14,649 nucleotides of DNA, taken from the NCBI GenBank assembly GCA_006227965.1, contig SBFL01000314.1, positions 1 to 14,649 of the forward strand, in the 5' to 3' direction. Positions 257 through 14,376 of the stretch are shown here, piece by piece. Below the pieces are notes generated by a model, which made no database searches, was not told the DNA's origin, and worked only from the letters and a program-made list of their open reading frames with translations. Numbering within the stretch: position 1 is the stretch's first letter; each line of letters begins with the position of its first letter. The DNA comes from Bacteroidota bacterium (GTDB lineage: Bacteria; Bacteroidota; Bacteroidia; Flavobacteriales; Flavobacteriaceae). The translations under genes were made by a program, and so were the position numbers.

Positions 257-1105
257 TTAAAGGAATTGGGGAAGTATTAAAAGTGGTAATTTCGATTCAA
301 ATGCGATTCGTTTTACCACTTTTTCCCTTGTCAGGTTTTCCAAAAAACTGTGCTTGTGCCGCATAAGCGCAATCATGTCTGCCCTTAATGTTTCGCTGAA
401 ATCGGAAATAGCCTCCGGTAGGTTGTCTTCCAGTGGTATTTCTTCAAAACGCACCTTAAATCCCTTCAATCGGGTCTCCAGCAATTTCTTATTGGATTCC
501 TGTGCAGGTTTTAATTTGAACTCCCTGGCGGCATAGGCCACGTGCAGGGTGGACTTCCAGACCTTCAGAAGGTCCATCAGGGTCTGAAGTTCATAGGGCT
601 CGTAATAGTGGGTATAATCGGTGGGGAAAACCACATGGTTAAGTTTCTGAAAATCAAATGTTTTAGGCACAACCAGGACAGGCCTGTTTTTAACGGTCTT
701 CAACATTCGCACCGTATTACTGCCCAGGAACACGCGTTCTGCACCGGAAGCCCCCTGGGTACCCATGACTATCAGGTCAACAGGGTGTTTCTTTATGCGC
801 TCCCGAACCTCGCCGATCAGGTCTCCGGGTCTGAGGAGGGTTTTGAATTCGTGCCTGGGGTTCCTGTGGTGCTCCTTGAGGTACGCCAGGATTTCATCCA
901 TTTTCTTTTTGGAATCTTCTTCCATTGACTGGTAGATGGCACCAAGGCGTTTCTCACCGTGGTCCCCCAGCACATTGGTCAGTTCGGGTTCATAGGTATG
1001 CACCAGGAGGAACCTGCACTGGAGGTCGTAAAAAAGTTTCAGGGCCGTAAAAATGGCGTTCCATGCATTTTTGGAGAAATCCGTGGGCAGCAGGATAGTT
1101 TTCAT
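257..1105 (-). CDS. Tandem-domain universal stress protein (second gene of USP pair)
   Basis: A 282-residue cytoplasmic protein with two UspA domains. Domain 1 (about 1-150) starts MKTILLPTDFS and carries the ATP-binding pattern G-x2-G-x9-G-S at G115, G118, G128 and S129 (MGTQGASG...LGSNT). Domain 2 (about 155-282) repeats the fold, starting VVFPTDY and ending LPLLILP, but lacks the glycine motif, so it is probably structural. I chose the ATG at 1103-1105 because USPs normally begin MK-IL-PTDFS. An in-frame ATG at 1115-1117 would add four residues (MTNV). The gene lies 14 bases (2 with the longer start) downstream of the stop of a paralogous USP gene, so the two are almost certainly co-transcribed from the promoter near 1990-2030. 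USPs bind ATP and help survival under starvation or low oxygen; the specific partner is unknown. Confidence 0.88.
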   Translation of the reverse strand: MKTILLPTDFSKNAWNAIFTALKLFYDLQCRFLLVHTYEPELTNVLGDHGEKRLGAIYQSMEEDSKKKMDEILAYLKEHHRNPRHEFKTLLRPGDLIGEVRERIKKHPVDLIVMGTQGASGAERVFLGSNTVRMLKTVKNRPVLVVPKTFDFQKLNHVVFPTDYTHYYEPYELQTLMDLLKVWKSTLHVAYAAREFKLKPAQESNKKLLETRLKGFKVRFEEIPLEDNLPEAISDFSETLRADMIALMRHKHSFLENLTREKVVKRIAFESKLPLLILPQFL

Positions 1106-1119
1106 AACATTCGTCATTC

Positions 1120-1968
1120 TTAATTTTCTGAGGTGTCTGGCACTACTACAAAGGGTATCTGGACGTGAAAGCCAATCTGATCTATATTCTGACGCACCAG
1201 CAATCTCTCAAAAAAAGAATGCCTGCGGTTCATCATCACCAGCAGGTCTACCGGGTGTTCCTCCACATACCTCAAAACGGCATCGGGCATAAGCTGTCCA
1301 TCCAATTCCACTGTTTCGTAATCGAGTTCTTCGAGATGCCTTTCAAGGTGGGCCTTGTTGTCTTTCTGACCGGCGGAGAGCCCTCCTTCCTCATTTACGT
1401 GCAGCAGGGTGAACCTCGCCCGGTGCATACGGGCCATCTGAAGGATTGGCTGTAGTTCCCCCGGTTTGTATGTGGTGAGGTAATCGCTCGGGAACAGGAT
1501 ATTGCGTACCGGGTGGTATTTAACCCGCTCCGGGATGGCCATAACCGGGGCCTTCGCCTTGCGGATGACAAAAACAGTGTTGGAGCCGAGAAACACCTCT
1601 TTGGCACCGCTGGCCCCCTGTGTTCCCATTACCACCATATCCACACCCTTGTCGGCGATCAGTTCTTCGATCTCGTCCGTCAGGGTATTGAAGGAGGAGA
1701 CAACCTCATAGCTGTGTTTGGGGTTGGCATAGGTCTTCCTGACATCTTCCACGGTCTTTTCGAGCCCCATCAGGGAAATGTCCACCCCAACATCCGGAAT
1801 GGCGCTGAAACTCGGGCCTCCCAGCACATAGTCCATCCGATAGAAAGCCGGGGAATAGGTATGCAGGAAATAAAAGGTACAGGTCTCATCCTTGAAAAAG
1901 TTCATGGCATAGGAAATCGCATGCCAGGCATTCTCGGAAAAATCGGTGGGAATAAGGATCGTTTTCAT
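1120..1968 (-). CDS. Tandem-domain universal stress protein (first gene of USP pair)
   Basis: A 282-residue two-domain UspA protein, a paralogue of its downstream neighbour with the same length and motif spacing. Domain 1 begins MKTILIPTDFS and has G115-x2-G118-x9-G128-S129 (MGTQGASG...LGSNT), the ATP-binding signature. Domain 2 begins ILFPSDY, contains a HSFFERLL segment in place of the glycine motif, and ends PFVVVPD. The frame stays open upstream to an ATG at 2053-2055, but those 29 extra residues are not USP-like and would run through the putative promoter, so the start at 1966-1968 is preferred. Just upstream lies an ACCTTTA box and a TGAC-N4-GTCA dyad, described separately, suggesting activation by a CRP/FNR-family regulator. 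Confident as a USP; the physiological signal is inferred. Confidence 0.9.
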   Translation of the reverse strand: MKTILIPTDFSENAWHAISYAMNFFKDETCTFYFLHTYSPAFYRMDYVLGGPSFSAIPDVGVDISLMGLEKTVEDVRKTYANPKHSYEVVSSFNTLTDEIEELIADKGVDMVVMGTQGASGAKEVFLGSNTVFVIRKAKAPVMAIPERVKYHPVRNILFPSDYLTTYKPGELQPILQMARMHRARFTLLHVNEEGGLSAGQKDNKAHLERHLEELDYETVELDGQLMPDAVLRYVEEHPVDLLVMMNRRHSFFERLLVRQNIDQIGFHVQIPFVVVPDTSEN

Positions 1969-1986: not shown

Positions 1987-2029
1987 TAAAGGTATGCCCG
2001 CCTCACCGGATCTTCTATGACTTCCGTCA
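1987..2029 (-). promoter_or_regulatory. Putative activator dyad plus -7 box for the USP operon
   Basis: On the minus strand the order is TGACGGAAGTCAT (2029 to 2017), 23 bases, then ACCTTTA (1993 to 1987), preceded by T to give TACCTTTA, close to the Bacteroidetes -7 consensus TAnnTTTG. The first element contains the dyad TGAC-N4-GTCA at 2018-2029. There is no TTG -33 box at the expected place, which fits an activator-dependent promoter. The same module with identical spacing precedes the DUF2267 gene at 3507-3549. The dyad centre is about 33 bases from the centre of the 8-base box, near -41 of the likely transcript start. Assignment to an FNR/CRP-type regulator is inference. Confidence 0.5.
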
Positions 2030-2075
2030 GTTCCGGATGCCACGGAAATCCGCACCTCAATCCTTTAAATATTTT

Positions 2076-2083
2076 TACCTTTA
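2076..2083 (+). promoter_or_regulatory. Possible -7 box for deoC-deoD
   Basis: TACCTTTA matches TAnnTTTG at five of the six fixed positions and is identical to the box of the divergent USP operon promoter. It sits 21 bases before the deoC ATG. No TTG -33 element is visible 19-21 bases upstream. The TGAC-N4-GTCA dyad at 2018-2029 lies 56 bases upstream of the box centre, so one bound regulator could act on both divergent promoters. Weak evidence. Confidence 0.3.
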
Positions 2084-2104
2084 AGCTGAATCATCAGCCA
2101 TTCC

Positions 2105-2770
2105 ATGACCCGGTCCGTCGCGAACTTAATCGACCATACCCTGCTCAGTCCCACTGCCACGGATTCTGACATACAACGCCTTTGTCGGGAAGCCCGTGAA
2201 TACGGCTTCAAAGCTGTATGTGTGGCCGGGTCCCGACTCGAATTCGCCTCGGAGCTCCTGTCCGGGAGCGGTGTCCTGCTGGCGGCAGTGGTCGGATTTC
2301 CTCACGGCAATGCCTCCACGGAGGCCAAAGTCTGTGAGGCGATGGCCTATATGAAATTGGGCGCAGATGAACTGGATGTGGTCCTCAATACCGGATGGGC
2401 CAGGTCTGGAGAGGAGGACCGGGTAGCCCGGGAACTGGAGCTGCTGAGGGAATCCACTGCAGGCAGGACCCTGAAACTGATCCTGGAAACCTGTTACCTG
2501 AAAGATGATGAAAAGCGGAAAATCTGTCGGATGGCCATGGAGGCTGGCTGGGATTTTGTCAAGACCTCCACAGGGTTCGGCCCGGCAGGGGCCACCCTGT
2601 CCGATGTCCTGCTGATGAAAGATACCGTGGGCGATGCCATGGGAATAAAGGCTTCAGGGGGGATACGGGATTATGAAACGGCCCGGAAATATATGGAGGC
2701 CGGTGCTACCCGCATAGGTACCTCCTCGGGGCCTGCAATCCTGTTGGGTGAAAAAAATTCAAAATCATGA
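2105..2770 (+). CDS. deoC: Deoxyribose-phosphate aldolase (EC 4.1.2.4)
   Basis: Cleaves 2-deoxy-D-ribose 5-phosphate to acetaldehyde and glyceraldehyde 3-phosphate in the cytoplasm, the last step of deoxynucleoside catabolism. The 221-residue length suits the short class I DeoC family, a TIM barrel. Visible motifs are IDHTLL (9-14), VVGFPHG (62-68), ELDVVLN (89-95), KTSTGF (153-158) and IKASGGI (181-187). By comparison with E. coli DeoC, K153 is the Schiff-base lysine, with D91 and K182 the other catalytic residues; all are present. The gene overlaps deoD by four bases (ATGA), so the two products are translationally coupled and act consecutively apart from the phosphopentomutase step. No deoB is seen in the window. 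The start is supported by the motif IDHTLL falling soon after it. Confidence 0.95.
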   Translation: MTRSVANLIDHTLLSPTATDSDIQRLCREAREYGFKAVCVAGSRLEFASELLSGSGVLLAAVVGFPHGNASTEAKVCEAMAYMKLGADELDVVLNTGWARSGEEDRVARELELLRESTAGRTLKLILETCYLKDDEKRKICRMAMEAGWDFVKTSTGFGPAGATLSDVLLMKDTVGDAMGIKASGGIRDYETARKYMEAGATRIGTSSGPAILLGEKNSKS

Positions 2771-3465
2771 GCTTACATATCAGTGCCAAACCCGGGGAAA
2801 TTGCAGATTTTGTACTGATGCCCGGAGACCCGCTCCGGGCCGAATGGATTGCCAATACCTATCTCGAGGAAGTCACCTGCTATAATAAGGTCCGTGGGAT
2901 GCTGGGGTTTACCGGCAAATTCCGGGGCAAGAAGGTCTCGGTTCAGGGCAGCGGGATGGGTATTCCCTCCGCCCTGATTTACTACACCGAACTGATACGG
3001 GAATACGGGGTTAAGACCATTATCCGCGTGGGCACTGCCGGGGCCCTACAGGGGCACCTGAAACTTCGCGACCTGGTCATGGCCCTTTCCGCCTCCACGA
3101 CTTCAGGCATCAACCGCGAGAGCTTCCCATACGGGGATTATGCCCCCACCGCCGACTTTTCCCTGTTACGAAGGGCCATGGGCCAGGCCAAAGCACTGGA
3201 TATGGAATTTGAGGCCGGCAATATACTTTCCGCAGATGTCTTCTATCCGTCCTCCGGTGATGTTTACACACCATGGAAAGAACACGGAGTGCTGTGTGTT
3301 GAGATGGAAACCGCCGCACTTTATACCGTGGCAGCCCGATATGGCGTCCGGGCACTCAGCCTGCTGACCATTTCTGATTCCCTGGTCAGGGGAGAACACA
3401 GTTCAGCGGCAGACCGGGAACGGTCCTTTGAAGACATGGCAACCCTCGCCCTGCATTGCCGGTAG
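2767..3465 (+). CDS. deoD: DeoD-type purine-nucleoside phosphorylase (EC 2.4.2.1)
   Basis: Phosphorolysis of purine (deoxy)nucleosides to free base and (deoxy)ribose 1-phosphate, a cytoplasmic hexameric enzyme in E. coli. The 232 residues keep E. coli DeoD numbering closely: phosphate-site G20, R24, R43 and R87, nucleoside-site M180 and E181 (VEMETAALY), and the base-protonating D204 (TISDS). Other family signatures are MPGDPLRA (18-25), VSVQGSGMG (57-65) and RVGTAGAL (87-94). The residue after the phosphate-binding loop is T90 where E. coli has S90, a conservative change. The ATG overlaps the deoC stop by four bases, giving a two-gene salvage/catabolic operon. Uridine phosphorylase is the main alternative within the superfamily, but the DeoD-specific signatures favour PNP. 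Confidence 0.93.
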   Translation: MSLHISAKPGEIADFVLMPGDPLRAEWIANTYLEEVTCYNKVRGMLGFTGKFRGKKVSVQGSGMGIPSALIYYTELIREYGVKTIIRVGTAGALQGHLKLRDLVMALSASTTSGINRESFPYGDYAPTADFSLLRRAMGQAKALDMEFEAGNILSADVFYPSSGDVYTPWKEHGVLCVEMETAALYTVAARYGVRALSLLTISDSLVRGEHSSAADRERSFEDMATLALHCR

Positions 3466-3506
3466 ATATGCACTTTGGGGATACTTCCTAAAAAAACGCC
3501 CCGATT

Positions 3507-3549
3507 GACATAAGTCATTTCCCCTTCAACCTGAAAGTGCCACCTTTAG
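3507..3549 (+). promoter_or_regulatory. Putative activator dyad plus -7 box for the DUF2267 gene
   Basis: TGACATAAGTCAT (3507-3519; TTGAC-ATAA-GTCAT counting the preceding T) is followed by 23 bases and then ACCTTTA (3543-3549). The arrangement and spacing match the USP operon promoter exactly, while the 23-base spacers are unrelated. The 8-base box CACCTTTA is a weaker version of TAnnTTTG, and there is no TTG -33 element. The dyad resembles half-sites of the FNR/CRP family and would sit near -41. It lies in the 108-base gap between deoD and the DUF2267 gene. Confidence 0.5.
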
Positions 3550-3573
3550 GGGTGAATCCTAAAAAATAGCACT

Positions 3574-4026
3574 ATGGCACTTAATTTTAATCAATACGCA
3601 CAGGAAGGTCATACTTTTATAAAGGACTACGCAGAGCACATGGGATTCGGCAATGACTACGACAGAGCAGGCCGGGTTCTTACATCTACCCTGCATGCCC
3701 TGAGGGATATCATCCCTTTTGCAGAATCCCTGCAATTGATGGCCCAGTTCCCCATGTTCCTTAAAGCAGTCTACGTGAACGGATGGACCACCCGAAGGAG
3801 ACCCGAAAGGATGAAACATATGGAGGAATTCATCGAACTGGTCCGCAAACACGACGGCGTAGCTGCCGTAAACGATTTCGGATATGATGAAGAACTGGCA
3901 GAAAAGTACATACAACTTACCTTTATGTTCCTCAGGAAAAATGTTTCCCTCGGGGAACTGGAAGATGTACGCGATTCGCTTCCCAAGGACCTCAAGTACA
4001 TGATCTATTCCAACCTGATGTTCTGA
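3574..4026 (+). CDS. DUF2267 domain protein
   Basis: A 150-residue soluble protein with no signal peptide or membrane segment. It matches my recollection of DUF2267 proteins: an N-terminal helix pair with an AGRVLTSTLHALRDIIP block (about 32-48), followed by an amphipathic region and a C-terminal helix ending SLPKDLKYMI. The molecular function of DUF2267 is not established; such genes often sit with universal stress proteins and other stress genes in bacteria. Here the nearest USP operon is about 1.6 kb away and shares the same upstream dyad and box, which supports a common regulator. A strong hairpin follows the stop codon, so this is probably a single-gene transcript. A 157-residue frame on the opposite strand is an antisense shadow. 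Confidence 0.8.
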   Translation: MALNFNQYAQEGHTFIKDYAEHMGFGNDYDRAGRVLTSTLHALRDIIPFAESLQLMAQFPMFLKAVYVNGWTTRRRPERMKHMEEFIELVRKHDGVAAVNDFGYDEELAEKYIQLTFMFLRKNVSLGELEDVRDSLPKDLKYMIYSNLMF

Positions 4027-4791: not shown

Positions 4792-6501
4792 TTCACAGGC
4801 AGCAGCGCTGGTACAGTGCTGCAAAACCTGGTCTGACCGGGAACTATCCCGGTACACGGTAATGCCCTTCAGGCCCATTTCCCAGGCCTTCCGGTAAATG
4901 GAAGCTACCTCCCCCTCAGGGATATCCCGGGGGAGGTTGACCGTTTTGGCCACGGCGTTATCCGTAAACTCCTGGAATGCCTGCTGATGGGCAAGGTGGT
5001 ATTCCCAGGGGATCTCGTGGGCCGTGGCCAGGACCCTGCGAAGGGCTGCAGGAATTTCAGCAACACCTGAAACCCCTCCCTCCTCAAGGATATGGGCCCG
5101 GATTTCGGGTGTCCACAAACCATGGTCTTCCAATACCCCCTGCACGATTGCATTGATTTCACGCTGCTGTGTTCCACCCAGAATCCCGACCCTTTTGAAT
5201 GCCAGGCCATAGAGAGGTTCTATGGAATACGAGGTGCCGGCGATAACCGAAATGATGCCCGTGGGGGCTATACTGTTGCAACTGGCATTCCGCATCTGTC
5301 GGCCGGGGTAATAGATGCTCTTGCGCCAATTGGGAAAGACCTCCCGCTCACGGCAAAGGGCTTCTGAGGCCTCAAAACTCCTCTCCTGTATGAATTGCAT
5401 CAATTTCCTTCCCAGTGCCACGGCCTCTTCAGACGCATAGGGGACCCCCAGCCCTATCAGTAATTCCGCCCAGCCCATTACCCCGAGCCCGACCTTCCTG
5501 TTTGCCTGGGTAATGGTGCGGATCTCCGGGAGCATGAACCTGTTTACGGAAATCACGTCATCTAGGAAACGAAGTGCCTGCGGCACCACCTCCCCCAATC
5601 GGTCCCAGTCCGGTGTGGCTTTTCCGTCTGACCGGATTTTGATCATTCCTGACAGATTAACAGACCCCAGGTTACAGCTCTCGTAAGGGAACAGCGGGAG
5701 TTCCCCACAGGGGTTCGTCGCCTGAAGGGTACCCAGGTCCGGCAGGGTATTCCCCTTATTGATGGTGTCGAGAAACAGCAGGCCCGGATCACCTGTTTTC
5801 CAGGCCTGATGGCAGAGGGCCTCCCAAAGTTCACGGGCAGGCACTTCACTCCATTTGCGGCCGTCCCTTGGGTTAATGAGCGACCAGGGGGTATCTGCAT
5901 CCACTGCCTCCATAAAGATGTCTGTAATGCCTACGGAAATATTGAAATTCCGCAGGGCAGCAGGGTTGGATTTGCATTCTATGAAGTATCGGATATCCGG
6001 ATGGGTAATGTTGAGGATCCCCATATTGGCACCCCGCCGGCGTCCTCCCTGTTTTATTTGTTCGGTGGCCTCATCGTAGACCTTCATAAAGGCCACAGGG
6101 CCTGAAGCCGACCCCGGACCAGCCCCCGTCCGATCCCCCCGGGGCCTCAGGGGCGTAAAATTAAACCCTGTCCCTCCCCCGCTCTGGTGGATCAGCGCAG
6201 TGTGGGTAAGCGTTTCAAAAATGGATTGCATGGTATCCTCAACGGGCAAGACAAAACAGGCGCTCAGTTGGCCTTCGGCCAGTCCGGCATTCATCAGGGT
6301 GGGGGAATTCGGAAGGAACACGCCCTGCTGCATTAACCGGTAAAAGCGCTCCTCCCATACGGCGGCATCCTTATCCTCGGCACGGGACACAGCCCTGGAC
6401 ACCCTTCGGAAGAGCTCATCCGGTGTTTCCGAAACTTCTCCTGCCTTATTCCGCTTCAAATATCGCGCCTTGAGGATCTCTACGGCGTTCGAACTCAACA
6501 T
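4786..6501 (-). CDS. nrdJ: Adenosylcobalamin-dependent (class II) ribonucleotide reductase
   Basis: Reduces ribonucleotides to deoxyribonucleotides using a vitamin B12 radical, independent of oxygen. The 571 residues hold the barrel core: NSPTLMNAG (65-73), redox cysteine C82 (LSACFVLP), SGGGTGFNFT (107-116), active-site NPCGE (263-267, thiyl-radical C265), partner cysteine C276 (SCNLGSVNL), and the phosphate-binding loop APTGIIS (412-418). There is no room for an N-terminal ATP-cone. The C-terminal shuttle cysteines are probably C563 and C569, a CX5C pair. The start at 6499-6501 keeps the typical LKARYLK N-terminus and overlaps the upstream DUF1611-like gene by 56 bases, suggesting translational coupling. 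It is the last gene of the four-gene minus-strand operon and converges with the WG-repeat gene. No other nrd gene or B12 riboswitch is visible. Confidence 0.93.
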   Translation of the reverse strand: MLSSNAVEILKARYLKRNKAGEVSETPDELFRRVSRAVSRAEDKDAAVWEERFYRLMQQGVFLPNSPTLMNAGLAEGQLSACFVLPVEDTMQSIFETLTHTALIHQSGGGTGFNFTPLRPRGDRTGAGPGSASGPVAFMKVYDEATEQIKQGGRRRGANMGILNITHPDIRYFIECKSNPAALRNFNISVGITDIFMEAVDADTPWSLINPRDGRKWSEVPARELWEALCHQAWKTGDPGLLFLDTINKGNTLPDLGTLQATNPCGELPLFPYESCNLGSVNLSGMIKIRSDGKATPDWDRLGEVVPQALRFLDDVISVNRFMLPEIRTITQANRKVGLGVMGWAELLIGLGVPYASEEAVALGRKLMQFIQERSFEASEALCREREVFPNWRKSIYYPGRQMRNASCNSIAPTGIISVIAGTSYSIEPLYGLAFKRVGILGGTQQREINAIVQGVLEDHGLWTPEIRAHILEEGGVSGVAEIPAALRRVLATAHEIPWEYHLAHQQAFQEFTDNAVAKTVNLPRDIPEGEVASIYRKAWEMGLKGITVYRDSSRSDQVLQHCTSAAACEL

Positions 6502-7534
6502 GCCTGTTCTTTTTTAGGTTCATCCCCGTGGCCTGACACAGAAGCTTCCGAATCAATTTCCCGTTTTTCGGGTTCAGGAAATTAACCGCCTGAACCCCGC
6601 TCAGTTTCTTAACCAGATCAATCCCCGCCAGGGTATTGGAGGCCACTCCGGTGACCAGGTCCGGCTTCATACCGAAAGCATTGATCAGGCCGTGCACTGC
6701 ATAGGGATCAGAGGCGCTCATGATCGAAAATTTCAGGTTGGGCCTTAGCGCCTGGATAGCGATGGAACCGTTATAGGGCTCCATGGGAGATGCCCCCACC
6801 TCGACCACGGCCACATCTGCCTCCACGGTTGCCATGCGAGCAAGCAACTGCCGGAGCTTTTTTCGGTAGAGTCCTTCGGGGCAGATGGAAGAAGGGAGTC
6901 CCACATCCACGAAATCAAAAATGGCATCGGCCCCTACGTCTTTGACGGCCAGAATATCCTTATAGCGCCCGGCACCCGCCAGCTTGGCGCCCAGCACGGA
7001 GTATCCGGCGGTTTTGAAAATATGGGTGACGATGCGGGCCGAAGTCGTTTTGCCTGCAGACATGGACGTTCCGTAAAAGAGGATCACCGGGGTCTCAAAG
7101 GGTACCTCTTCCACTGGAGTGACGAAATCCTCCATCCGCATTTTGCACCTGTCCCTGAACACATGGCCCAGATAGCGGAGTTCCATCATGGGCGGGAGGT
7201 AAACGGACCTGGAGGTCATCTTGCCAAACAAGCCGGCCCCGGTGAGCACGTGCATTTTAAGGTCATCCCCTATTGCTTCCCAGCTCCCGGTGGCCTCAAG
7301 GGTCGCAAAGCGGTCCCCCAGGACCCCCATAATGGTTTCTCCTCCAATGACCCCTCTCATGCGCCCATTTGGCAGTTCCAGCAACAGGGAAGGGCCTCCG
7401 GGTTCCGTTATCTTACAAACCACATAATCCCCCATTTCCCAGAGCCCTCTGTGTATGGCCCGGATATCAAACGGGTTTACCGCCAGATCCGAGATCCGCG
7501 TCAGTGACGTAAATATTTCCACCTGCTTTTTCAT
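6446..7534 (-). CDS. DUF1611-like P-loop protein
   Basis: A 362-residue soluble protein. The N-terminal domain (about 1-145) is mostly beta/alpha with no recognised motif. The second domain carries a P-loop GTSMSAGKTT (155-164), then a strand ending VVEVGASP (243-250) that could serve as Walker B, then a nucleotide-binding-like C-terminal half. This two-domain plan resembles DUF1611 proteins; the match is from memory and divergent. A marine member of that family (DgcN) has been reported as a D-glutamate N-acetyltransferase, but its partner epimerase is absent here, so that activity should not be assumed. The ATG overlaps the M20 peptidase stop by four bases, and the 3' end overlaps nrdJ by 56 bases. 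Alternative: a MobB/dethiobiotin-synthetase-like NTPase of other function. Confidence 0.6.
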   Translation of the reverse strand: MKKQVEIFTSLTRISDLAVNPFDIRAIHRGLWEMGDYVVCKITEPGGPSLLLELPNGRMRGVIGGETIMGVLGDRFATLEATGSWEAIGDDLKMHVLTGAGLFGKMTSRSVYLPPMMELRYLGHVFRDRCKMRMEDFVTPVEEVPFETPVILFYGTSMSAGKTTSARIVTHIFKTAGYSVLGAKLAGAGRYKDILAVKDVGADAIFDFVDVGLPSSICPEGLYRKKLRQLLARMATVEADVAVVEVGASPMEPYNGSIAIQALRPNLKFSIMSASDPYAVHGLINAFGMKPDLVTGVASNTLAGIDLVKKLSGVQAVNFLNPKNGKLIRKLLCQATGMNLKKNRHVEFERRRDPQGAIFEAE

Positions 7535-8706
7535 GACATCTTTTTTAAGGGGTCCATCATGAGCAATAGGGCCAATAGGGAGGTGCGCTCTGCCAGCCGG
7601 TCCGTCAGGATGTGTTCGTGGCGGGCATGGGCCCCGTCACCCGGGGTTCCCAGGCCATCCAGGGTGGCAGTGTACTGGCTTGTTGTATTGGCATCAGAGC
7701 CTCCCCCTGCCGCGGCCTGCTCCAGTTCAATACCCAGGGCCCTGCCTGTCATGGCCGCCAGCGACCAGAGGAACTGGTTCCTGGGTGTAGGTTCCATAGG
7801 GGGCCTGCCGAACCCCCCTTCAATTTCAAGATGCACACCTTCGGCCTCCGTCCGGAGGGATCTGAATATGCCTTCTACCCTCAAACCCTCTTCCTTTGTG
7901 GGTACGCGCACATCGAGAACCACCCTGCTTAAGGGGGCAATCGTATTGGGGGAAATGCCTCCCTCGATCAGGCCGACGTTTACGGTGGTGCCGGTCTCAA
8001 AATCATTCAGGGCGTACACCTGTTGTACCAGCCGGGCCATTTCAACTATGGCATTGGCGCCCTTTTCCGGGTCCAGGCCGGCATGGGCAGCTTTTCCATA
8101 GACGGTCAGGGTAAAGCGCCCCAACCCCTTGCGGGCTGTCTTAAGTTTTCCTTCCATCCCCAGCGGAGGCTCCAGCACAAAAGCCCGGTTGGCAATGCGT
8201 GCCAAACGCCTGATGGCCGGAGTGGATTCCCGGCTGCCCACCTCTTCATCCGAATTGATGAGGATCACCGGGAGTACACCGGGTCTGAGGCCAAGGCCTG
8301 AAAGGCACCGGAGCGCAAAGAGGATTTGCACGATCCCGGCTTTCATATCGTACACACCCGGGCCCGCCAGTTGTTCCTCCGTTTCCCTTAAGGGCATTTC
8401 CCTCAGGGTATGGATTGGCCAGACCGTGTCACAATGCCCCAGCAGGAGTTGCACCGGCTGGCCTGGAAAGCGTCGTTCAGGCCGGGCGTAGAGGTAGCCC
8501 CCTGTTTCTCTTCCGGGGACCCGTATGGTATACATCCCAAGGTCGGCAAATTTCCGCTCCAGCCACGTCAGGACCTCCGAAAGGGCCCACAGGTCCGAAG
8601 ACGGGGATTCCATCCGGGCCAGTTCCCTTATGAACCCTTTCATCTCATCCTGTCGTGAACTGAGCCAGGCCTGTATGTCTTTCGATATATGGGTGGTTGG
8701 AGTCAT
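7531..8706 (-). CDS. M20 family zinc metallopeptidase (carboxypeptidase G2/glutamate carboxypeptidase-like)
   Basis: A 391-residue cytoplasmic enzyme (no signal peptide) with the M20 plan: a catalytic domain split by a dimerisation domain (about 190-305). Zinc ligands and catalytic residues line up with carboxypeptidase G2: H91 and D93 (GHCDTVWP), D120 (GPGVYDMKAG), catalytic E154 with ligand E155 (NSDEEVGS), E179 (LEPP) and H360 (GAHARHEH). All are present, so it should be active on an N-acyl amino acid, dipeptide or similar amide. The substrate cannot be read from the sequence. It overlaps the flavin reductase-like gene upstream and the DUF1611-like gene downstream by four bases each (ATGA), so it is made as part of the same coupled operon. 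The partner genes suggest amino-acid or peptide-derivative catabolism. Confidence 0.88.
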   Translation of the reverse strand: MTPTTHISKDIQAWLSSRQDEMKGFIRELARMESPSSDLWALSEVLTWLERKFADLGMYTIRVPGRETGGYLYARPERRFPGQPVQLLLGHCDTVWPIHTLREMPLRETEEQLAGPGVYDMKAGIVQILFALRCLSGLGLRPGVLPVILINSDEEVGSRESTPAIRRLARIANRAFVLEPPLGMEGKLKTARKGLGRFTLTVYGKAAHAGLDPEKGANAIVEMARLVQQVYALNDFETGTTVNVGLIEGGISPNTIAPLSRVVLDVRVPTKEEGLRVEGIFRSLRTEAEGVHLEIEGGFGRPPMEPTPRNQFLWSLAAMTGRALGIELEQAAAGGGSDANTTSQYTATLDGLGTPGDGAHARHEHILTDRLAERTSLLALLLMMDPLKKMS

Positions 8707-9314
8707 CTCTTGAAACCTTTAGGGAAGGGAAAGTGATAGGTCTCTGCCACCCTTGCAAAACGCCCTTCGGCCACATAGGCCAAAAGGGGGTTCTTGTACA
8801 GCATCTGCTGCTCATCCTGTTCGGATACCCTGAGGTAATCCGGCTCAACAAAGGCGTGCAGGATGCTTCCGGTGATCAGGCTGTTTCGCCCAAACCCGTC
8901 TATCGTTTTAAAATGCCTGCATTCAAACATCAGGTAGGACTGTTCCAGGAACAGGGCATCCACCTCAGTTGCCCTGCATGTAGGCAGGGAATTGATGACC
9001 TGGTCTGCCTTGGAGATGCCCGGGTGGCGCGGGGAAGCCGAAAGGGAGGTGATCAGGGTCTGATCCGGCCTGGGAAAGCTCACTGTGAACTCCCCATATT
9101 CCTCAATATTCCGGTAAGTCCCGTGGGAAGGGGTACAGACAAAACCGAAATAATTGTCAAAACCCATGGGGGTTATCATGTGCTTCGGGGCCAGGTCATA
9201 GCCTCCGGCCTCCCGGGTTCCAATCACCGCCAGGGGGGCAACCATGAAAAACCGCTTCCAGACAGGCTGAGCCGTATCCAGCGATACCCAATTTTTTGAC
9301 AACGATTGGACCAT
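8703..9314 (-). CDS. Flavin reductase-like (FMN-binding split-barrel) protein
   Basis: A 203-residue soluble protein of the flavin reductase-like family. The characteristic N-terminal half is seen: PLAVIGTREAGGYDLAPKHM (about 27-46), then MGFDNYFGFVCTPSHGTYRNI (about 50-70), then a strand EFTVSFP (75-81). These match the flavin-binding strand-loop pattern in which the substrate loop carries S/T-H-T-Y-R-N. Members use FMN and NAD(P)H as flavin reductases or act as small flavoprotein oxidoreductases; the specific substrate is unknown. It is the first gene of the minus-strand operon and overlaps the M20 peptidase start by four bases. It faces the divergent PepSY-like gene across a 192-base gap. 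The start at 9312-9314 precedes the domain by a sensible leader. Confidence 0.82.
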   Translation of the reverse strand: MVQSLSKNWVSLDTAQPVWKRFFMVAPLAVIGTREAGGYDLAPKHMITPMGFDNYFGFVCTPSHGTYRNIEEYGEFTVSFPRPDQTLITSLSASPRHPGISKADQVINSLPTCRATEVDALFLEQSYLMFECRHFKTIDGFGRNSLITGSILHAFVEPDYLRVSEQDEQQMLYKNPLLAYVAEGRFARVAETYHFPFPKGFKR

Positions 9315-9506
9315 GGCAGGGTTATTTGGGTGTGCCTATAAACTACAAAACCCGGGGCTCCCTGCCAATGATCTACATCAGGGGGCTACAGGACCAGGAT
9401 TTGGGCGCGCAGACTGATGCAGATCATTGTTGCCGGATTGAAATCCAAGTATTTTTATACAACCGGCGTGAAATTCGCCTGCATTTAAAACCTAAAAATC
9501 CTGGCC
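9315..9506. promoter_or_regulatory. Divergent intergenic region with a possible + promoter
   Basis: This 192-base gap separates the flavin reductase-like gene (-) from the PepSY-like gene (+). On + there is TTG at 9427-9429, 20 bases, then TATTTTTA at 9450-9457, close to the Bacteroidetes TTG/TAnnTTTG pattern and 49 bases before the ATG. A short inverted repeat GGCG-N7-CGCC lies around 9465-9480. I see no convincing promoter for the minus operon and no copy of the TGAC-N4-GTCA dyad. Confidence 0.35.
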
Positions 9507-10016
9507 ATGAAAAAGCTTTTATTAGGTCTGTTGTGCATCGGGTTGACCAGCCCGGTACTGGCACAGATCATCAAGACCGAAGAATTATCCGAAGTGGTCG
9601 TGTATGCCACGAACTACAAGTACCTGAATAGTCTGGCATCTCAAGAGCCCGCAGCCATTCCCGTCCAAATGCTGGAAAGGAAAGTGGCTGCCTTTAACCT
9701 GGAAGATTCGGAATACTATCAGGATGACTACGATTACTACCAAATCCGGTTTTATATCCCGGATGGCAAGATCCTGGCCGCCTATGACAAGGACGGCAAA
9801 ATCCTGAGGACGATTGAAAAATTCGAAAACGTCAAGCTTCCCGAAAGCGTGAGCAACGCTATTTTGGATCGCTTCCCGGGCTGGACCGTCAGTGAGGACG
9901 TTTACCTGGTTCGGTACCACAGGGACAAAGGGGTGACCAAAACCTATAAGGTTACCCTGGTCAATGGGGAGAAAACCTTAAAGATCAAGCTGGATGACAA
10001 GGGCAACTTCCTGTAA
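9507..10016 (+). CDS. Secreted PepSY-like protein
   Basis: A 169-residue protein with a clear signal peptide (MKKLLLGLLCIG..., likely cleavage after VLAQ around residue 20), so it is exported. The first mature segment reads SEVVVYATNYKYLNSL (28-43). An acidic, tyrosine-rich stretch follows (EDSEYYQDDYDYYQ, about 66-79). The C-terminal half (about 80-169) has the repeating strand-helix look of PepSY-like/beta-lactamase-inhibitor-like domains, with LPESVSNAILDRFPGW and a closing GEKTLKIKLDDKGNF. Proteins of this type are frequent in flavobacteria and have no established role. Similar ones are sometimes labelled nicotinate-nucleotide adenylyltransferase in databases, which the sequence does not support. 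It has its own putative promoter and an intrinsic terminator downstream, so it is likely monocistronic. Confidence 0.75.
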   Translation: MKKLLLGLLCIGLTSPVLAQIIKTEELSEVVVYATNYKYLNSLASQEPAAIPVQMLERKVAAFNLEDSEYYQDDYDYYQIRFYIPDGKILAAYDKDGKILRTIEKFENVKLPESVSNAILDRFPGWTVSEDVYLVRYHRDKGVTKTYKVTLVNGEKTLKIKLDDKGNFL

Positions 10017-10109: not shown

Positions 10110-10140
10110 CCGCCCTGAAGTTTCTTCAGGGCGGTTTTTT
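10110..10140 (+). terminator. Intrinsic terminator after the PepSY-like gene
   Basis: CCGCCCTGAAG (10110-10120) pairs perfectly over 11 bases with CTTCAGGGCGG (10124-10134), with a TTT loop and a run of six T at 10135-10140. It is clear in the + direction. In the minus direction no T-run follows the stem, so the convergent MCE gene, whose stop begins at 10140, is not obviously terminated by it. Confidence 0.92.
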
Positions 10141-11141
10141 CAGTCTTTTTTGTTTTTCTTATCCTTTTTCTCCTGTTTTTCCTGTTCCCGCTCGAGTTTT
10201 TTGAAATACCCCCGGGTGAGCCAGTTGTGCTGCAGGGCTTCCATGTTCTCGTCGAATTTAACGAGGCCGGAATCCAGGTGCTTCAGTCCGTGGCGGATCT
10301 CCTCGGCCATGATGCTGTCCTTCAGCAATAGGCCAAGCGTCCCCTCGCCTGCCTGCAGGTCTCCTACCAGTTCGTTCAACCGCCCGGTCATTTCCCGGAT
10401 CTCCCGCCCGGAGCTGTCCAGATTGGAAGCCACGCCTCGGATCTGATCACTGAATTCGGGATCGTTCATCAGCAGGTTCAGGGTACTTTGTTCGAGCTGC
10501 CACTGCTGTATCATTTCATTGAGCCGGTTCACCGCCTGCCGGGACTGTACCGTGCTTATCCGGAGGTTATGGAAACTCTGCTGAAGGTCTTTGGCCATGG
10601 TACTGTCGTAGAGGAGCTGGCTCAGGATCCCGGACCCGTTGCGCAGGGCCTGGGTAACCTCCAGAAGGTCTGCAGTCAGCAGGGCGGCGTTCTCATTGGT
10701 GACGTTAAGGGTGGTGAGCATGTCCTGGGTGTTGATGCGACTGAAGGTAGGAATCTCGTCCCCGTCTGTGATGGGATTTCCCTCTCCTTTTCCCGGCAGG
10801 ATATTGATCAGCATGCTGCCCACAAGCCCGTCAGACCCCACCATGGCCACGGCATCGTCCTTGATGTGGTCCAGCATGCTTTCTTCAATCCGCATGTAGA
10901 CGCGGATACTGGTATCGTTTTCCATCACGATGTCCTTGACCACTCCTACACTGATGCCCGAATACCGGACGTTGTTACCCTTCTGAAGGCCATTGACATT
11001 GCTGAAGACCGCGGTGATCCGGAAGGTAGACCGGAAAATATTCTGTTCATTCCCGATCATGTAGGCCATAACCAGGATCAGCAGGCTTCCCAGGATGACG
11101 AACACCCCCAGTTTTACGTATTGCGAAGTTGATTTTCCCAT
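10140..11141 (-). CDS. mlaD: MCE/MlaD family substrate-binding protein of a lipid ABC transporter
   Basis: A 333-residue inner-membrane-anchored periplasmic protein. A single N-terminal membrane segment (about 8-30) is followed by one MCE domain (about 36-115) with NVNGLQKGNNVRYSGISVGVVKDI and the GSDGLVGSMLINILPG end. A long helical, partly coiled-coil region (about 150-300) follows, and then a very basic tail (EKQEKKDKKNKKD). MCE proteins form hexameric rings that pass phospholipids between membranes. The gene starts three bases after the ATPase gene stop and closes the permease-ATPase-MCE operon. It is longer than E. coli MlaD (about 183 residues), the extra length being the helical C-terminus, as is usual in Bacteroidetes. 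The gene name is by analogy. Confidence 0.88.
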   Translation of the reverse strand: MGKSTSQYVKLGVFVILGSLLILVMAYMIGNEQNIFRSTFRITAVFSNVNGLQKGNNVRYSGISVGVVKDIVMENDTSIRVYMRIEESMLDHIKDDAVAMVGSDGLVGSMLINILPGKGEGNPITDGDEIPTFSRINTQDMLTTLNVTNENAALLTADLLEVTQALRNGSGILSQLLYDSTMAKDLQQSFHNLRISTVQSRQAVNRLNEMIQQWQLEQSTLNLLMNDPEFSDQIRGVASNLDSSGREIREMTGRLNELVGDLQAGEGTLGLLLKDSIMAEEIRHGLKHLDSGLVKFDENMEALQHNWLTRGYFKKLEREQEKQEKKDKKNKKD

Positions 11142-11144
11142 GGC

Positions 11145-11927
11145 TTACTTTTTAAAGAATGCTTCCACTTTAGGGTCTGTGCTCGAGGAGAGTTCCCCGT
11201 AGGTGCCCTCCGCGTAATTGGTCCCCTCCACCAGGAGCAGGATCCGCTCCGATATAACCCGGGCGCAATCCACATCGTGGGTGATGATCAGGGAGGCGGT
11301 GCCGTATTTTCGCTGGATATTCCGCATCAGCCCGATGATCTCCTTGGAGGTGATCGGGTCCAGGCCGCTGGTAGGCTCGTCGTACAGGATCAGTTTTGGC
11401 TTCAGGATCAGTGCCCGGGCCAGGGCGATCCGGCGCTTCATGCCCCCGGAGAGCTCTGCCGGCATCAGGTCTATGGCATGGGCCAGCCCCACATTTTCCA
11501 GGGCTTCCATCACCAGGGGCAGGGTATCGGTAATGCGGCCGAGTTTTTCCTTGTGGCGCCGCATCGGAAATTCCAGGTTCTCCCGGACCGTCATGGAATC
11601 ATACAGGGCGCTTCCCTGGAAGAGGAAGCCGATGTCTGAGCGGAGGTGGTCCAGTTCCTGCTGTTCCAGGGTGGAAATGTCCTGCCCGAGTACCTCTACC
11701 ACCCCTTCGTCGGGTTCCATAAGGCCCACAAGGCATTTGATCATCACGGATTTGCCGGAACCGGATTTGCCCATGACCACCAGGTTTTCGTTCTCGTACA
11801 GGGTCAGGTTAAACCCCCTGAGGACCTGGTTCTCCCCAAAGCTCTTGCGAAGGTCCCTGATGCGGATTACCTCTTTTTTACCGGCAGTGGCCTTTTTGGA
11901 TTCGGTATGTTGTGTCCTGGTTTCCAC
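11145..11927 (-). CDS. mlaF: Mla-type ABC transporter ATP-binding protein
   Basis: Cytoplasmic ATPase powering the MCE lipid transporter. With a GTG start at 11925-11927 it has 260 residues: Walker A GKSGSGKS (53-60), Q-loop Q104, signature LSGGM (159-163), Walker B LILYDEP (179-185, catalytic E184) and switch histidine H217 (ITHD). All are intact. The frame continues upstream to an ATG at 12000-12002, but that would add 25 residues read inside the permease gene (65-base overlap) with a sequence unlike ABC proteins. The GTG lies ten bases after the permease stop and is the better start. The gene sits between mlaE and mlaD with tight spacing, so all three are one transcript. Confidence 0.9.
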   Translation of the reverse strand: METRTQHTESKKATAGKKEVIRIRDLRKSFGENQVLRGFNLTLYENENLVVMGKSGSGKSVMIKCLVGLMEPDEGVVEVLGQDISTLEQQELDHLRSDIGFLFQGSALYDSMTVRENLEFPMRRHKEKLGRITDTLPLVMEALENVGLAHAIDLMPAELSGGMKRRIALARALILKPKLILYDEPTSGLDPITSKEIIGLMRNIQRKYGTASLIITHDVDCARVISERILLLVEGTNYAEGTYGELSSSTDPKVEAFFKK

Positions 11928-11937
11928 GGTATCAGAG

Positions 11938-12714
11938 TTAGTAAAAGATATCGGAGATAAAGACGGCCATAAAATCCACAAAAAATACCAGCAGGGAAGC
12001 ATTTACCACGGCCGTGTTGGCTGCCTTCCCCACCCCGGCGGTTCCTTTCTGGCAGTAATACCCCTTATAGCATCCCACCAGGCCGATCATAAAACCGAAG
12101 AAAAAGGACTTGATGGTGGCAGGGATAAAGTCCGCGTAGGCAAGGGCGTCAGAGACCTTATTGAAATACAGCTGGAAGCTCATGCCCCCCTTGAAATATT
12201 CCACCAGGGCGGAGCCATAGAGGGCAATCATATCCCCGAAGATCACCAGGAGCGGGATCATTAAGGTGGTGGCCAGCACCCGGGTCACCACCAGGTAATT
12301 GAAGGGATTCGTTCCGGATACTTCCATCGCATCAATCTGTTCGGTTACCCTCATGGACCCTAGCTCAGCCCCAATGCCGGAGGCGATCCGCCCGGCACAA
12401 ATCAGAGCTATAATTACCGGCCCAATTTCACGCACAATGGATATCCCCACCATGTTGGGCATCCAGGATTCGGCCCCGAATTCAATGAGGGTGGGCCTGG
12501 ACTGGAGCGTGAGTACCAGGCCAATGATAAACCCGGTTACCAGGACCAGGACCAGGGAGCGGTTCCCCATCTGGTAGCACTGCCTCAGGAATTCCCGGAA
12601 CTCATAGGGCGGACGGACGACCTCACGGAAAAACCGGCCGGCAAAATAGGCCAGCTGCCCGGTCTCGCTCAGAAAATCCCTGATCAGTTCCCCTATGGAT
12701 CGGTTTTGGTTCAT
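11938..12714 (-). CDS. mlaE: Mla-type ABC transporter permease
   Basis: Inner-membrane permease of 258 residues, the normal MlaE length. A leading amphipathic helix is followed by about five to six hydrophobic segments: around 52-70 (SLVLVLVTGFIIGLVLTLQ), 85-108, 140-165, 200-215 and 235-257. The family block GAELGSMRVTEQIDAMEVSG (114-133), which couples to the ATPase, is fully preserved, as is PVIIALICAGRIASGIG (98-114). It heads the mlaE-mlaF-mlaD operon. No mlaB (STAS) or mlaC (periplasmic carrier) gene lies nearby, as is usual for Bacteroidetes. The 79-base gap upstream follows the broken GH32 gene; a TATCTTTA box at 12723-12730 may be a promoter. Confidence 0.9.
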   Translation of the reverse strand: MNQNRSIGELIRDFLSETGQLAYFAGRFFREVVRPPYEFREFLRQCYQMGNRSLVLVLVTGFIIGLVLTLQSRPTLIEFGAESWMPNMVGISIVREIGPVIIALICAGRIASGIGAELGSMRVTEQIDAMEVSGTNPFNYLVVTRVLATTLMIPLLVIFGDMIALYGSALVEYFKGGMSFQLYFNKVSDALAYADFIPATIKSFFFGFMIGLVGCYKGYYCQKGTAGVGKAANTAVVNASLLVFFVDFMAVFISDIFY

Positions 12715-12722
12715 GCCAATAG

Positions 12723-12730
12723 TAAAGATA
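12723..12730 (-). promoter_or_regulatory. Possible -7 box for the mla operon
   Basis: On the minus strand TATCTTTA matches TAnnTTTG at five of the six fixed positions and lies eight bases before the mlaE ATG. No TTG -33 element is obvious, and the leader would be almost absent, so this is tentative. Confidence 0.2.
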
Positions 12731-12793
12731 CTCCAGCCGTGGGTTCCGAAGTATGACGAATATCAGCCCGGGAATCGGCCAGGGGATAGAAAA

Positions 12794-14376
12794 TCAGGGA
12801 GATTCCCAGATGCCCTCCAGGGCGAAGACCACCCCGGAAGCCAGCACCCACTCCCCTTCGTCGGCCCAGAAAGTAAGGGTGTCAAAAGGGGCGGATGGAA
12901 AAAAGACCTCCGTGAAATTCAGCGCCCCCTGCCCGGCAAAGACCTCCAGGGAGGCCACATCCAGGTAGATCCGCAGGTCTTGCAGGTCCTGCATTGTAAT
13001 AGGTGCCGTATGCGGCCCTTTGAAGAAGTCCTCCGAAAAACCCCTGGGCCCGGATTGGCGACGGTCTACCCAGAGCTGCTCGTTCTCCCGGTCAAAACCA
13101 AGGATCAGCCGGTCTCCTTTGCCGTTGGACAGGGTCATCCCGAACAGGGTGGCCGTGGTTTGCTCCGAATCGGTATGCAGGAGGAGTTCACACCCGGCCG
13201 GCGAAAAGGCCCCGGAAACCTCCTGCTCTTTGGCAATAGCCCGCCTTCCCAGGTCCGTACGATCCCCCCTGAGGGCCTTAAGGGCTTCCATAGGACTGGA
13301 ATTCAGGGAATAGCCCCCTTCCACTGCCCGGAGCGTCAAAACCCGGGGCAGGGTCATAGCAGACCTCCAGGTGGCGGTGGGAACCTGCTGAGCGTACTGC
13401 CAGTTGGACATCCATCCGATCCCGATCCGCTCCCCGGGGCCCACGGGGGCATGGTCCCAGGTCACAAAGGCGTAGTTGTCCGTACCATAGTCAAGCCACT
13501 GCTGCTGTGCAGGGTTGGCAATAAAGCGGGTCCCGTCAAAGTCCCCGATAAAATAGGAGGTAGCCGTCCCCCCGTTTGGCGCCTCCTGTTGGATGCTAAC
13601 AAGAAGCACCCATTTGGTCTGCCCTGTTTCGGGGTCCTGCAGGGGAAAGAGGTCCGGGCATTCCCACAGGCGGGTGTCCCCGGGGATGCCAAAGTCGGAG
13701 AGGTAGGTCCAGGCCTTCAGGTCGGGGGACCCATAGAACTGAACACACGGTCATAGACGGCCAGGGCCATCACCCATTTCCCGCTCTCCGGGTGCCAGAC
13801 GATCTTGGGGTCCCGGAAGTCACGCGTGCCAGTTTCGTTTCTCAGTACCGGGTTGCCCGCGTATTTTGTCCAGGAGCGCCCCTTATCCAGGCTCCAGGCA
13901 ATGCTCTGGTTCTGGAAATCGTCCCGCCCTGCTTTTTCCCCTTCCGGGTCGTGGTGGGTAAAGGCGGCCACCACGGGCGGGTTCTCCCGGGAGCCGAAAC
14001 CTGAAGTATTGGCCGTGTCCACCACGGAGCCCCCGGAAAAGATATACCCCAGTGAGTCTGGGGCCAGGGCCACAGGCAGGTGTTCCCAACTGACCAGATC
14101 CCGTGAGACTGCATGCCCCCAGTGCATGGGCCCCCAGACAGTGCTGTCCGGGTAGTACTGGTAGCTCAGGTGGTACTCCCCTTCCAGGTAGAACATGCCG
14201 TTGGGGTCGTTCATCCATTTGGCCGGGGGGGTGAAATGGAACCGGGGCCGGTGGGGTTCCGTGTAGGAAAGTTCCGTTTCAACAGCTGCAGTTTTCTGTT
14301 CGGAGGGTTGCTCCTGCCTACAAGACAAAAATCCGAGTAGGAACAGGGGCATAATCCAAAGGAACTGGATTTTCAT
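12794..14376 (-). pseudogene. GH32 fructan/levan hydrolase lipoprotein, frameshifted
   Basis: Two overlapping frames together make a full GH32 protein of 526 residues (levanase/fructan beta-fructosidase type), which hydrolyses fructose polymers. The first frame (13717-14376) has a lipoprotein-like signal peptide (FLSC, Cys19), the nucleophile motif WMNDPNG (D57) and FRDPK (D189), up to AVYDRV (211). The second continues FYGSPDLKAW, then WECPDLF with the acid/base E238, and a C-terminal beta-sandwich domain (LEVFAGQGALNFTEVFFP), ending at 12794. The family pattern D-R-V-x-F-Y means two extra bases, at 13742-13743, break the frame. The shifted frame stops at 13717. With no slippery heptamer, it is either a natural pseudogene or a sequence error. 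If the frame is intact in reality, the enzyme looks fully active. Confidence 0.85.

Follow-up and report, generated by a model that had tools for sequence, protein, structure and literature searches.

In the FixLJ-FixK cascade a sensor kinase, a response regulator and a CRP/FNR activator work in one pathway, and the FNR, FixK and ANR regulons of proteobacteria are built on a TGA-N6-TCA dyad; for CRP/FNR proteins the class II position is -41.5. DosR and OsdR, by contrast, are LuxR-type regulators with another site. The actinobacterial dormancy regulons of DosR/DevR and OsdKR join a two-component system to universal stress protein (USP), nitroreductase, PPDK and PNPOx-type genes, with USPs clustered around it, according to the available parts of two reports (PMC5069765, PMC11876180), and LOV histidine kinases such as LovK-LovR, which carry a LOV domain on a histidine kinase, are linked to stress in the available part of a third (PMC4844311). 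Here we analyse a stretch of 14,649 nucleotides from a member of the Flavobacteriaceae (the window: contig SBFL01000314.1, forward strand), in which the promoters of a USP operon and of a gene for a DUF2267 protein carry the same module of dyad, 23-base spacer and -7 box. We consider it probable that these modules, five in the window when the site is generalised, are class II activator sites of a CRP/FNR-superfamily protein, within an FNR-led cascade that includes a LOV kinase and a fusion of a receiver to a CRP/FNR activator.

This system shares features with each of those described and departs from each: (i) As in the FNR, FixK and ANR regulons, the dyad has TGA-N6-TCA geometry and a centre computed at -41.5, its targets include ccoN-like, hemN and USP genes, and the glutamate and arginine of the recognition helix of an FNR-like protein of the genus align with those of VETISR in the solved FNR. 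Unlike in those regulons, the promoters combine a sigma-A box of the Bacteroidota kind (TAnnTTT) with the lack of a -33 hexamer, TGAC is accepted as a half site, and where the remaining ligand of the FNR cluster aligns, the FNR-like protein (that of G009) has no cysteine. (ii) As in FixLJ-FixK, a kinase, a receiver and a CRP/FNR activator appear in one pathway, but here a single protein combines receiver and activator, a LOV motif marks the sensor, and a site of the FNR-like flavour (type 2, see below) precedes the kinase operon in 7 of 8 genomes. (iii) The likeness to the DosR/OsdR dormancy regulons is one of gene content only (USP, nitroreductase, PPDK and PNPOx-type genes, as listed in the parts of the reports cited above); sites here also precede Hsp20, PfkB and P-type ATPase genes in other genera, and the regulator, composed of receiver, cNMP_binding and HTH_Crp domains, does not belong to the DosR type. 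(iv) The LOV domain on a histidine kinase and the link to stress recall what the cited part says of LovK-LovR, but here the kinase is partnered by a receiver-CRP/FNR fusion, and the light response is predicted from the motif. Among the titles and abstract starts of the matches listed in open-access PubMed Central, we found neither a flavobacterial FNR site of this kind nor a LOV kinase that has a response regulator of CRP/FNR type.

The window is contig C70 of its own genome assembly (427 contigs, 74.8% complete, 2.28 Mb searched), and the closest named record found is that of Robiginitalea aurantiaca M39 (L003), whose DUF2267 protein is 81% identical. A sequence-only reading of the window had reported two copies of a dyad followed by 23 bases and ACCTTTA; the sequence and the first copy are right (minus strand, 2029-1987: TGACGGAAGTCAT, 23 bases, ACCTTTA), and the second, TGACATAAGTCAT with 23 bases and ACCTTTA, lies on the plus strand at 3506-3548 and not, as given, at 3507-3549. 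As predicted class II CRP/FNR-type sites they span 1988..2029 on the minus strand for the USP operon (dyad TGACGGAAGTCA at 2029-2018, 23-base spacer, -7 box TACCTTT at 1994-1988) and 3506..3547 on the plus strand for the DUF2267 gene (dyad TGACATAAGTCA at 3506-3517, 23-base spacer, weak -7 box CACCTTT at 3541-3547). At up to two mismatches these are the sole matches to the module in the window, and none of 200 dinucleotide shuffles gave any; in these 2.28 Mb of the genome, TGACNNNNGTCAN{22,26}ACCTTT yields only the USP and DUF2267 matches, and the reversed pattern none. The operon comprises USP A, with two Usp stretches (1120..1968, minus; PF00582), and then USP B (257..1117, minus; PF00582), and the DUF2267 protein (PF10025) is encoded at 3574..4026 on the plus strand; from the position of the boxes, transcripts are predicted to start near 1982 and near 3553, respectively.

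The claim that neither promoter has a TTG at the -33 position is correct: a classical TTG -33 box is missing from the USP and DUF2267 promoters alike. ACCTTTA is indeed present in both, but it is no module-specific element: it matches the usual flavobacterial -7 box, TAnnTTTG in the available part of PMC9723704, and occurs at deoC (2077-2083) too. The same part of that paper places the mapped sigma-A box at -12 to -5, and when this position is applied both dyad centres are computed at -41.5, which refines the earlier estimate of an activator position near -41; by this measure the dyads are predicted class II CRP/FNR sites.

Both sites are conserved. We read upstream of homologues of at least 40% identity in selected loci, leaving out the best USP-A homologue of genome G003 (39%). 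The dyad and the exact 23 bases to the box are found before 10 of 11 USP-A homologues (the window, eight more of the genus and Zeaxanthinibacter, L004), the arrangement not being kept in the most distant one (L017, 41%). For DUF2267, in a set that excludes a whole-genome search of G002-G005 and the upstream region of the G076 gene, the dyad is present in 7 of 10 (six of the genus, window included, and L004) and was not found before three distant homologues (L005, L006 and L007); a box-like heptamer stands at the same offset, with its first T missing in the six of the genus. Orthologous promoters therefore keep motif and spacing, as the sequence-only reading had expected, with a weak box at DUF2267 and exceptions that are all distant. 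The dyad before USP-A lies 36 to 53 bases from the box of the divergent deoC gene in the seven promoters measured (those read upstream of USP-A apart from L004), and 45-47 bases in five; because this distance varies, the fixed spacing is confined to the USP direction, and deoC is unsupported as a target of the shared dyad.

Related promoters give the general form of the site, a dyad TGAY-N4-RTCA with a box TANNTTT. The comparison of the TGAC-N4-GTCA core with FNR/CRP-family sites is supported by its TGA-N6-TCA geometry, with the amendment that the dyad also accepts TGAT/ATCA. When one mismatch at most is allowed, a search for TGAYNNNNRTCA-N23-TANNTTT finds five sites in the window where 0.03 are expected, a number that none of 200 shuffles reaches; they precede the USP operon, the DUF2267 gene, a flavin reductase gene, a gene for a protein of 169 amino acids and mlaE. 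The last three had been overlooked, together with the generic character of the box, the division of the sites into two flavours and a further candidate regulator, a receiver-CRP fusion with its LOV kinase.

The same site is abundant across the genus. In ten genomes, including that of the window, TGAYNNNNRTCAN{22,24}TANNTTT has 225 matches versus 12 for the reversed-pattern control; the narrower TGACNNNNGTCAN{26,28}TTT has 102 versus 34, with G002 below its controls (1 versus 2). The spacer is exactly 23 bases in 197 of the 225 sites, and because that search had allowed only 22-24, spacers from 6 to 36 were scanned in G006 and G009: over these 31 spacings 57 of 120 matches fall at 23, 8 at 24, 6 at 25 and at most 4 at any other. 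The sites are mostly outside long open reading frames (ORFs), which bears out the genome search that had been proposed as a check. In G006 and G009, 61 of 70 on-spacing matches lie outside ORFs of at least 150 amino acids versus 8 of 26 off-spacing matches (spacers 4-20; Fisher p 2e-7), the latter being what is left of 31 once five were set aside: two beginning at the on-spacing dyads of hemN and the ccoN-like gene, one at the promoter of the fnr-like gene, one duplicate by overlap and one that had no locus. Several retained controls are on-spacing dyads read on the opposite strand or paired with a different box, and their presence lowers the contrast. In all genomes together, 182 of 225 sites lie outside ORFs versus 499 of 2000 positions drawn at random from the same loci. 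Of 220 called start codons, 93 stand 15-29 bases past the box and 154 no more than 60 bases past it, although these calls are crude (the longest ORF with a start within 250 bases; five of the 225 sites have no such ORF of 50 amino acids).

The genes after the 225 sites were clustered, and one member per larger cluster was scanned against Pfam or NCBIfam; 50 sites precede singletons, few of them scanned, and five precede no called ORF. USP clusters follow 36 sites (31 and 5), hemN follows a site in all ten genomes (NCBIfam hemN, above cut-off), and a COX1-family ccoN-like gene does so in eight. Other targets, with their counts, are the LOV-kinase gene, thioredoxin and cytochrome c (7 each), the NiFe hydrogenase small subunit, MlaE, the 169-residue protein and PNPOx-like proteins (6 each), PFOR subunits (5 and 4), YtxH, ferredoxin and DoxX (4 each), PPDK (3), DnaJ (2) and nitroreductase (1). 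Genes of low-oxygen respiration (hemN, ccoN-like, PFOR, hydrogenase) thus carry the site, and the target set reads as an FNR-like regulon, to judge from gene content. This agrees with the rise of cbb3 oxidase and haem synthesis in low oxygen that the available part of PMC9723704 reports for a flavobacterium, and the presence of USPs, a ccoN-like oxidase and hemN downstream is in line with the stress or low-oxygen regulon originally proposed from the USP and DUF2267 promoters.

Two proteins are candidates for binding the site. The first is a stand-alone FNR-like protein of the genus (231 amino acids in G009; L191 1796-2491), whose gene adjoins a USP gene and a 792-codon gene resembling by eye a metal P-type ATPase; its match to the NCBIfam Fnr model (100.6 bits) is below the cut-off of 228, so we call it FNR-like and not Fnr. 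It keeps a CxxC and a cysteine near position 109; in 39 aligned rows, 18 of them fusions, the first CxxC cysteine is present in 19, the second in 20 and Cys 109 in 25. The FNR-like gene has an upstream dyad of its own, with a spacer of 25 and not 23 (G009:C46:49471-49514, G006:C11:587616-587659). The second candidate is a receiver-CRP/FNR fusion of 356 amino acids (L038 1483-2553; receiver, cNMP_binding and HTH_Crp domains), whose gene shares 23 bases with the end of a histidine kinase gene. Of the receiver residues, the acidic E, the phospho-accepting D and the K are present in 22 of 22 rows, and the Thr/Ser position has Thr in 14 and Ser in 8. A PF13545 search of the genome of the window gave two proteins, the fusion and L039, a CRP-like protein of 210 amino acids that is the less likely regulator, its recognition helix SSRVVISR having no glutamate. 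The recognition helices of the two candidates are nearly identical (GTATESCIRILSEF in the FNR-like protein, GTATETAIRTLSEL in the fusion; GTATES/T-x-x-IR), which would explain how one core site could serve two proteins.

The kinase upstream of the fusion carries a LOV segment. It is found in 8 of the 10 genus genomes, exactly the eight with the fusion gene, and in G002 and G003 neither was found; kinase and fusion lie on separate contigs in G000 and G001, and the G001 fusion is seen as its last 143 residues only, at a contig end. A strict site stands before the kinase gene in seven of these eight genomes, type 2 in every case. The adduct cysteine is present in 17 of 17 LOV segments (eight of the genus, nine of other genera) and the full GxNCRFLQ in 12. 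Among the solved structures listed, the best match of the LOV segment is a histidine kinase entry with the same motif (9vf7, E 1.4e-38), and the 60 matches listed include others under the names blue-light photoreceptor, aureochrome and phototropin; the score against the YtvA-family model (137.7) is below its whole-protein cut-off of 250. The G008 kinase has PAS, HisKA and HATPase domains, with a GAF match below cut-off. The kinase is a probable blue-light or redox sensor that would form a two-component system with the fusion. The light input is read from the LOV motif, and such proteins can have light-independent roles too, as the available part of PMC4844311 states.

A difference between the sites may connect each regulator to its own promoters. 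An unlabelled two-component fit to 14 positions of the 225 sites (a gain of 41 in the Bayesian information criterion) separates 94 type 1 sites (TGAYNCARRTCATT-like) from 131 type 2 sites (TGATAATTATCATATTTT-like). The hemN (10 of 10), ccoN-like (8 of 8), kinase (7 of 7), cytochrome c, hydrogenase and PFOR promoters are type 2 throughout, the promoters of the 169-residue protein (6 of 6) and YtxH (4 of 4) are type 1 throughout, and USP promoters are mixed, the main cluster having 20 of type 1 and 11 of type 2, and the other being type 2 in five of five. Scored afterwards, the DUF2267 promoters are type 1 in all six genus orthologues (0.995-1.0; window 0.995), and L004 scores 0.43. Type 1 accounts for 27 of 39 sites on the window contig or within 40 kb of the fusion gene, an island limit chosen after seeing the data, as compared with 63 of the 160 remaining sites of fusion-bearing genomes and 4 of the 26 sites of G002 and G003.

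The alternative that survives best assigns all sites to the stand-alone FNR-like protein, with fusion targets elsewhere and flavours produced by base composition and -33 elements. It is unlikely in our judgement, although not negligibly so: core and spacing are equal in both flavours, the core is present at the hemN, ccoN-like and kinase promoters, and the TTG or TTT right after the type 1 dyad falls where a -33 TTG would. However, among genomes that have the fusion 65 of 199 sites show TT after the dyad, as against 0 of 26 among those without it (p 1e-4), this TT is coupled to a CA centre (p 8e-9), and in G002, which is without the fusion, the corresponding USP promoter carries a type-2-like site. 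In other genera, too, type 1 matches lie near the fusion gene. When one genome per genus of the family is searched, 149 in all, a strict type 1 pattern has 26 matches versus 2 for controls. The fusion is found at E 1e-40 in 74 of the 149: a close group of 12, including the genome of the window, set by a limit (E below 1e-100) also chosen after seeing the data, and a distant group. Distant receiver-CRP fusions, about 40% identical, are the only kind found in 62 of the 149 genomes. With the genome of the window excluded, a type 1 match occurs in 6 of 11 close-group genomes versus 12 of 137 others (p 4e-4), and in 14 of 73 genomes with any fusion versus 4 of 75 without (p 0.01). For all nine matches of those six close-group genomes the distance to the fusion gene is 1.7 to 39 kb; of the remaining 17, three are in the genome of the window, nine in the distant group and five in genomes without a fusion at E 1e-40. 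Around the close-group fusion genes, all seven YtxH genes found (7 of 11 genera) carry a site, the kinase is preceded by one in 6 of 11, at 20 to 165 bases, Hsp20, PfkB, PTA, PPDK-type and P-type ATPase genes have sites as well, and LOV was found in 9 of the 11 genomes.

That an unrelated repressor or activator, for instance of GntR or MarR type, binds the dyad and the CRP/FNR geometry is fortuitous seems very improbable to us; CRP/FNR binding at the dyad is itself a prediction, which leaves such a regulator some room, but the TGA-N6-TCA geometry, the -41.5 position, the ccoN-like, hemN, PFOR and hydrogenase targets and the dyad that the CRP/FNR-type gene adjoining a USP gene has for itself all speak for a CRP/FNR protein. 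A duplicated promoter or chance as the source of the two-promoter match, suggested by the two modules lying 1.5 kb apart in one window, can practically be discarded, a recent duplication being ruled out by 23-base spacers that are unrelated, just as the sequence-only reading had argued, and by the separate conservation of each site in orthologues, and chance by the genus-wide enrichment and the shuffles.

In the FNR-led cascade that we favour, a CRP/FNR dimer would sit on TGAY-N4-RTCA at -41.5 of sigma-A promoters that have no good -33 box, and the site would drive USP, DUF2267, lipid transport, flavin reductase and other genes. Two proteins with nearly the same recognition helix would use this one core site: the FNR-like protein would best fit the type 2 sites of the ccoN-like, hemN, PFOR and hydrogenase genes and of the kinase operon itself, and the receiver-CRP/FNR fusion the type 1 sites of a stress island, including the USP and DUF2267 promoters of the window. 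The wiring would most likely run from low oxygen through FNR to the LOV-kinase/fusion operon and from there to the stress regulon, and blue light or flavin redox would enter as a further input through the LOV kinase. The computed parts of this model are the sites with their spacing and conservation, the target genes, the co-occurrence and the LOV motif; binding, the direction of control, the assignment of flavours to regulators and the signal are what we infer. We put forward more tentatively, as a picture that we would not call probable at this point, a light- and oxygen-gated, dormancy-type regulon of marine flavobacteria, in which FNR would raise the LOV kinase and the fusion in low oxygen, blue light or flavin redox would set the phosphorylation of the fusion, and the fusion would activate USP, DUF2267, YtxH, lipid-transport, Hsp20 and comparable genes from a distinct class II flavour.

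Several observations weigh against this cascade: (i) A search of the genome of the window, which is 25% incomplete, did not find the stand-alone FNR-like protein, and CRP/FNR homologues of a Flavobacteriales metagenome-assembled genome are predicted to sense carbon, in the available part of PMC8510549. (ii) Given the near-identical helices, each regulator can likely bind both flavours, and the split may in part reflect promoter sequence and not regulator choice, as the model spans 8 bases downstream of the dyad. (iii) The flavours do not follow the genes strictly: the mlaE sites are mostly type 2 (2 type 1, 4 type 2), and USP-A orthologues vary, from 0.997 in the window through an intermediate 0.26 in G005 to 0.005 in G002. 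(iv) Only two genus genomes are without the fusion; in the family, 14 of the 26 type 1 matches are outside the close group, only one (G101) of the nine with a distant paralogue alone lies within 40 kb of it, and 5 of the 11 close-orthologue genomes have no strict type 1 match. (v) Two of these 11 genomes, G164 and G078, yielded no LOV segment. The FIGVQ-type glutamine of LOV domains contacts the flavin, and it is replaced in 7 of the 17 LOV segments (G004, G005, G007, G008, G010, G115 and G125) and kept in 10, the genome of the window among them, so that the photocycle may differ. The replacements are I, V, L, L, H, S and H in L135, L136, L138, L139, L292, L296 and L297, with the adduct cysteine kept.

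The other three sites of the window lie further along it. The one before the flavin reductase gene (9339..9380, minus) has its single mismatch in the box, and the gene, at 8703..9314 on the minus strand, encodes a flavin reductase-like protein (PF01613); in G006 a site precedes a gene that resembles its orthologue by eye (s47). The site at 9415..9456 on the plus strand, of type 1, is found in 6 of 10 genus genomes and belongs to the 169-residue protein (9507..10016, plus), whose start looks signal peptide-like by eye; no NCBIfam family was found for this protein and no Pfam family for its G006 orthologue. The site before mlaE-mlaF-mlaD (12724..12765, minus) is likewise present in 6 of 10 genus genomes, four of the six being called type 2, and is followed by the MlaE permease (11938..12714, minus; PF02405 in the G006 orthologue), an ABC ATPase (11145-12002; ABC_tran) and MlaD (10140-11141; MlaD match). 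Within 12714-12730 (minus), the mlaE start codon comes 9 bases past the TTT of the -7 box, and 8-9 bases past it in five orthologues, for which reason nearly leaderless mlaE transcripts are predicted. Elsewhere in the window, a GH32 gene is split over two frames (12797-13609 and 13720-14376, minus), one with the start of GH32N and the other with the rest and GH32C, through a frameshift, an assembly error or as a pseudogene, and a protein of 362 amino acids without a Pfam match, which we take to resemble DUF1611, is encoded between the ribonucleotide reductase and M20 peptidase genes (6449-7534, minus).

Flavobacteriia are common marine bacteria whose transcription control is little mapped, and the available part of PMC9723704 calls the family understudied. 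The present analysis yields a testable regulon, with a defined site, a fixed spacing, two candidate regulators and a target list, and it points to a naturally occurring protein that joins a two-component receiver to a CRP/FNR activator and would take its signal from a kinase bearing a light-sensor motif. It would also put DUF2267 and YtxH into a stress or low-oxygen programme that is like the actinobacterial dormancy regulons in its gene content.

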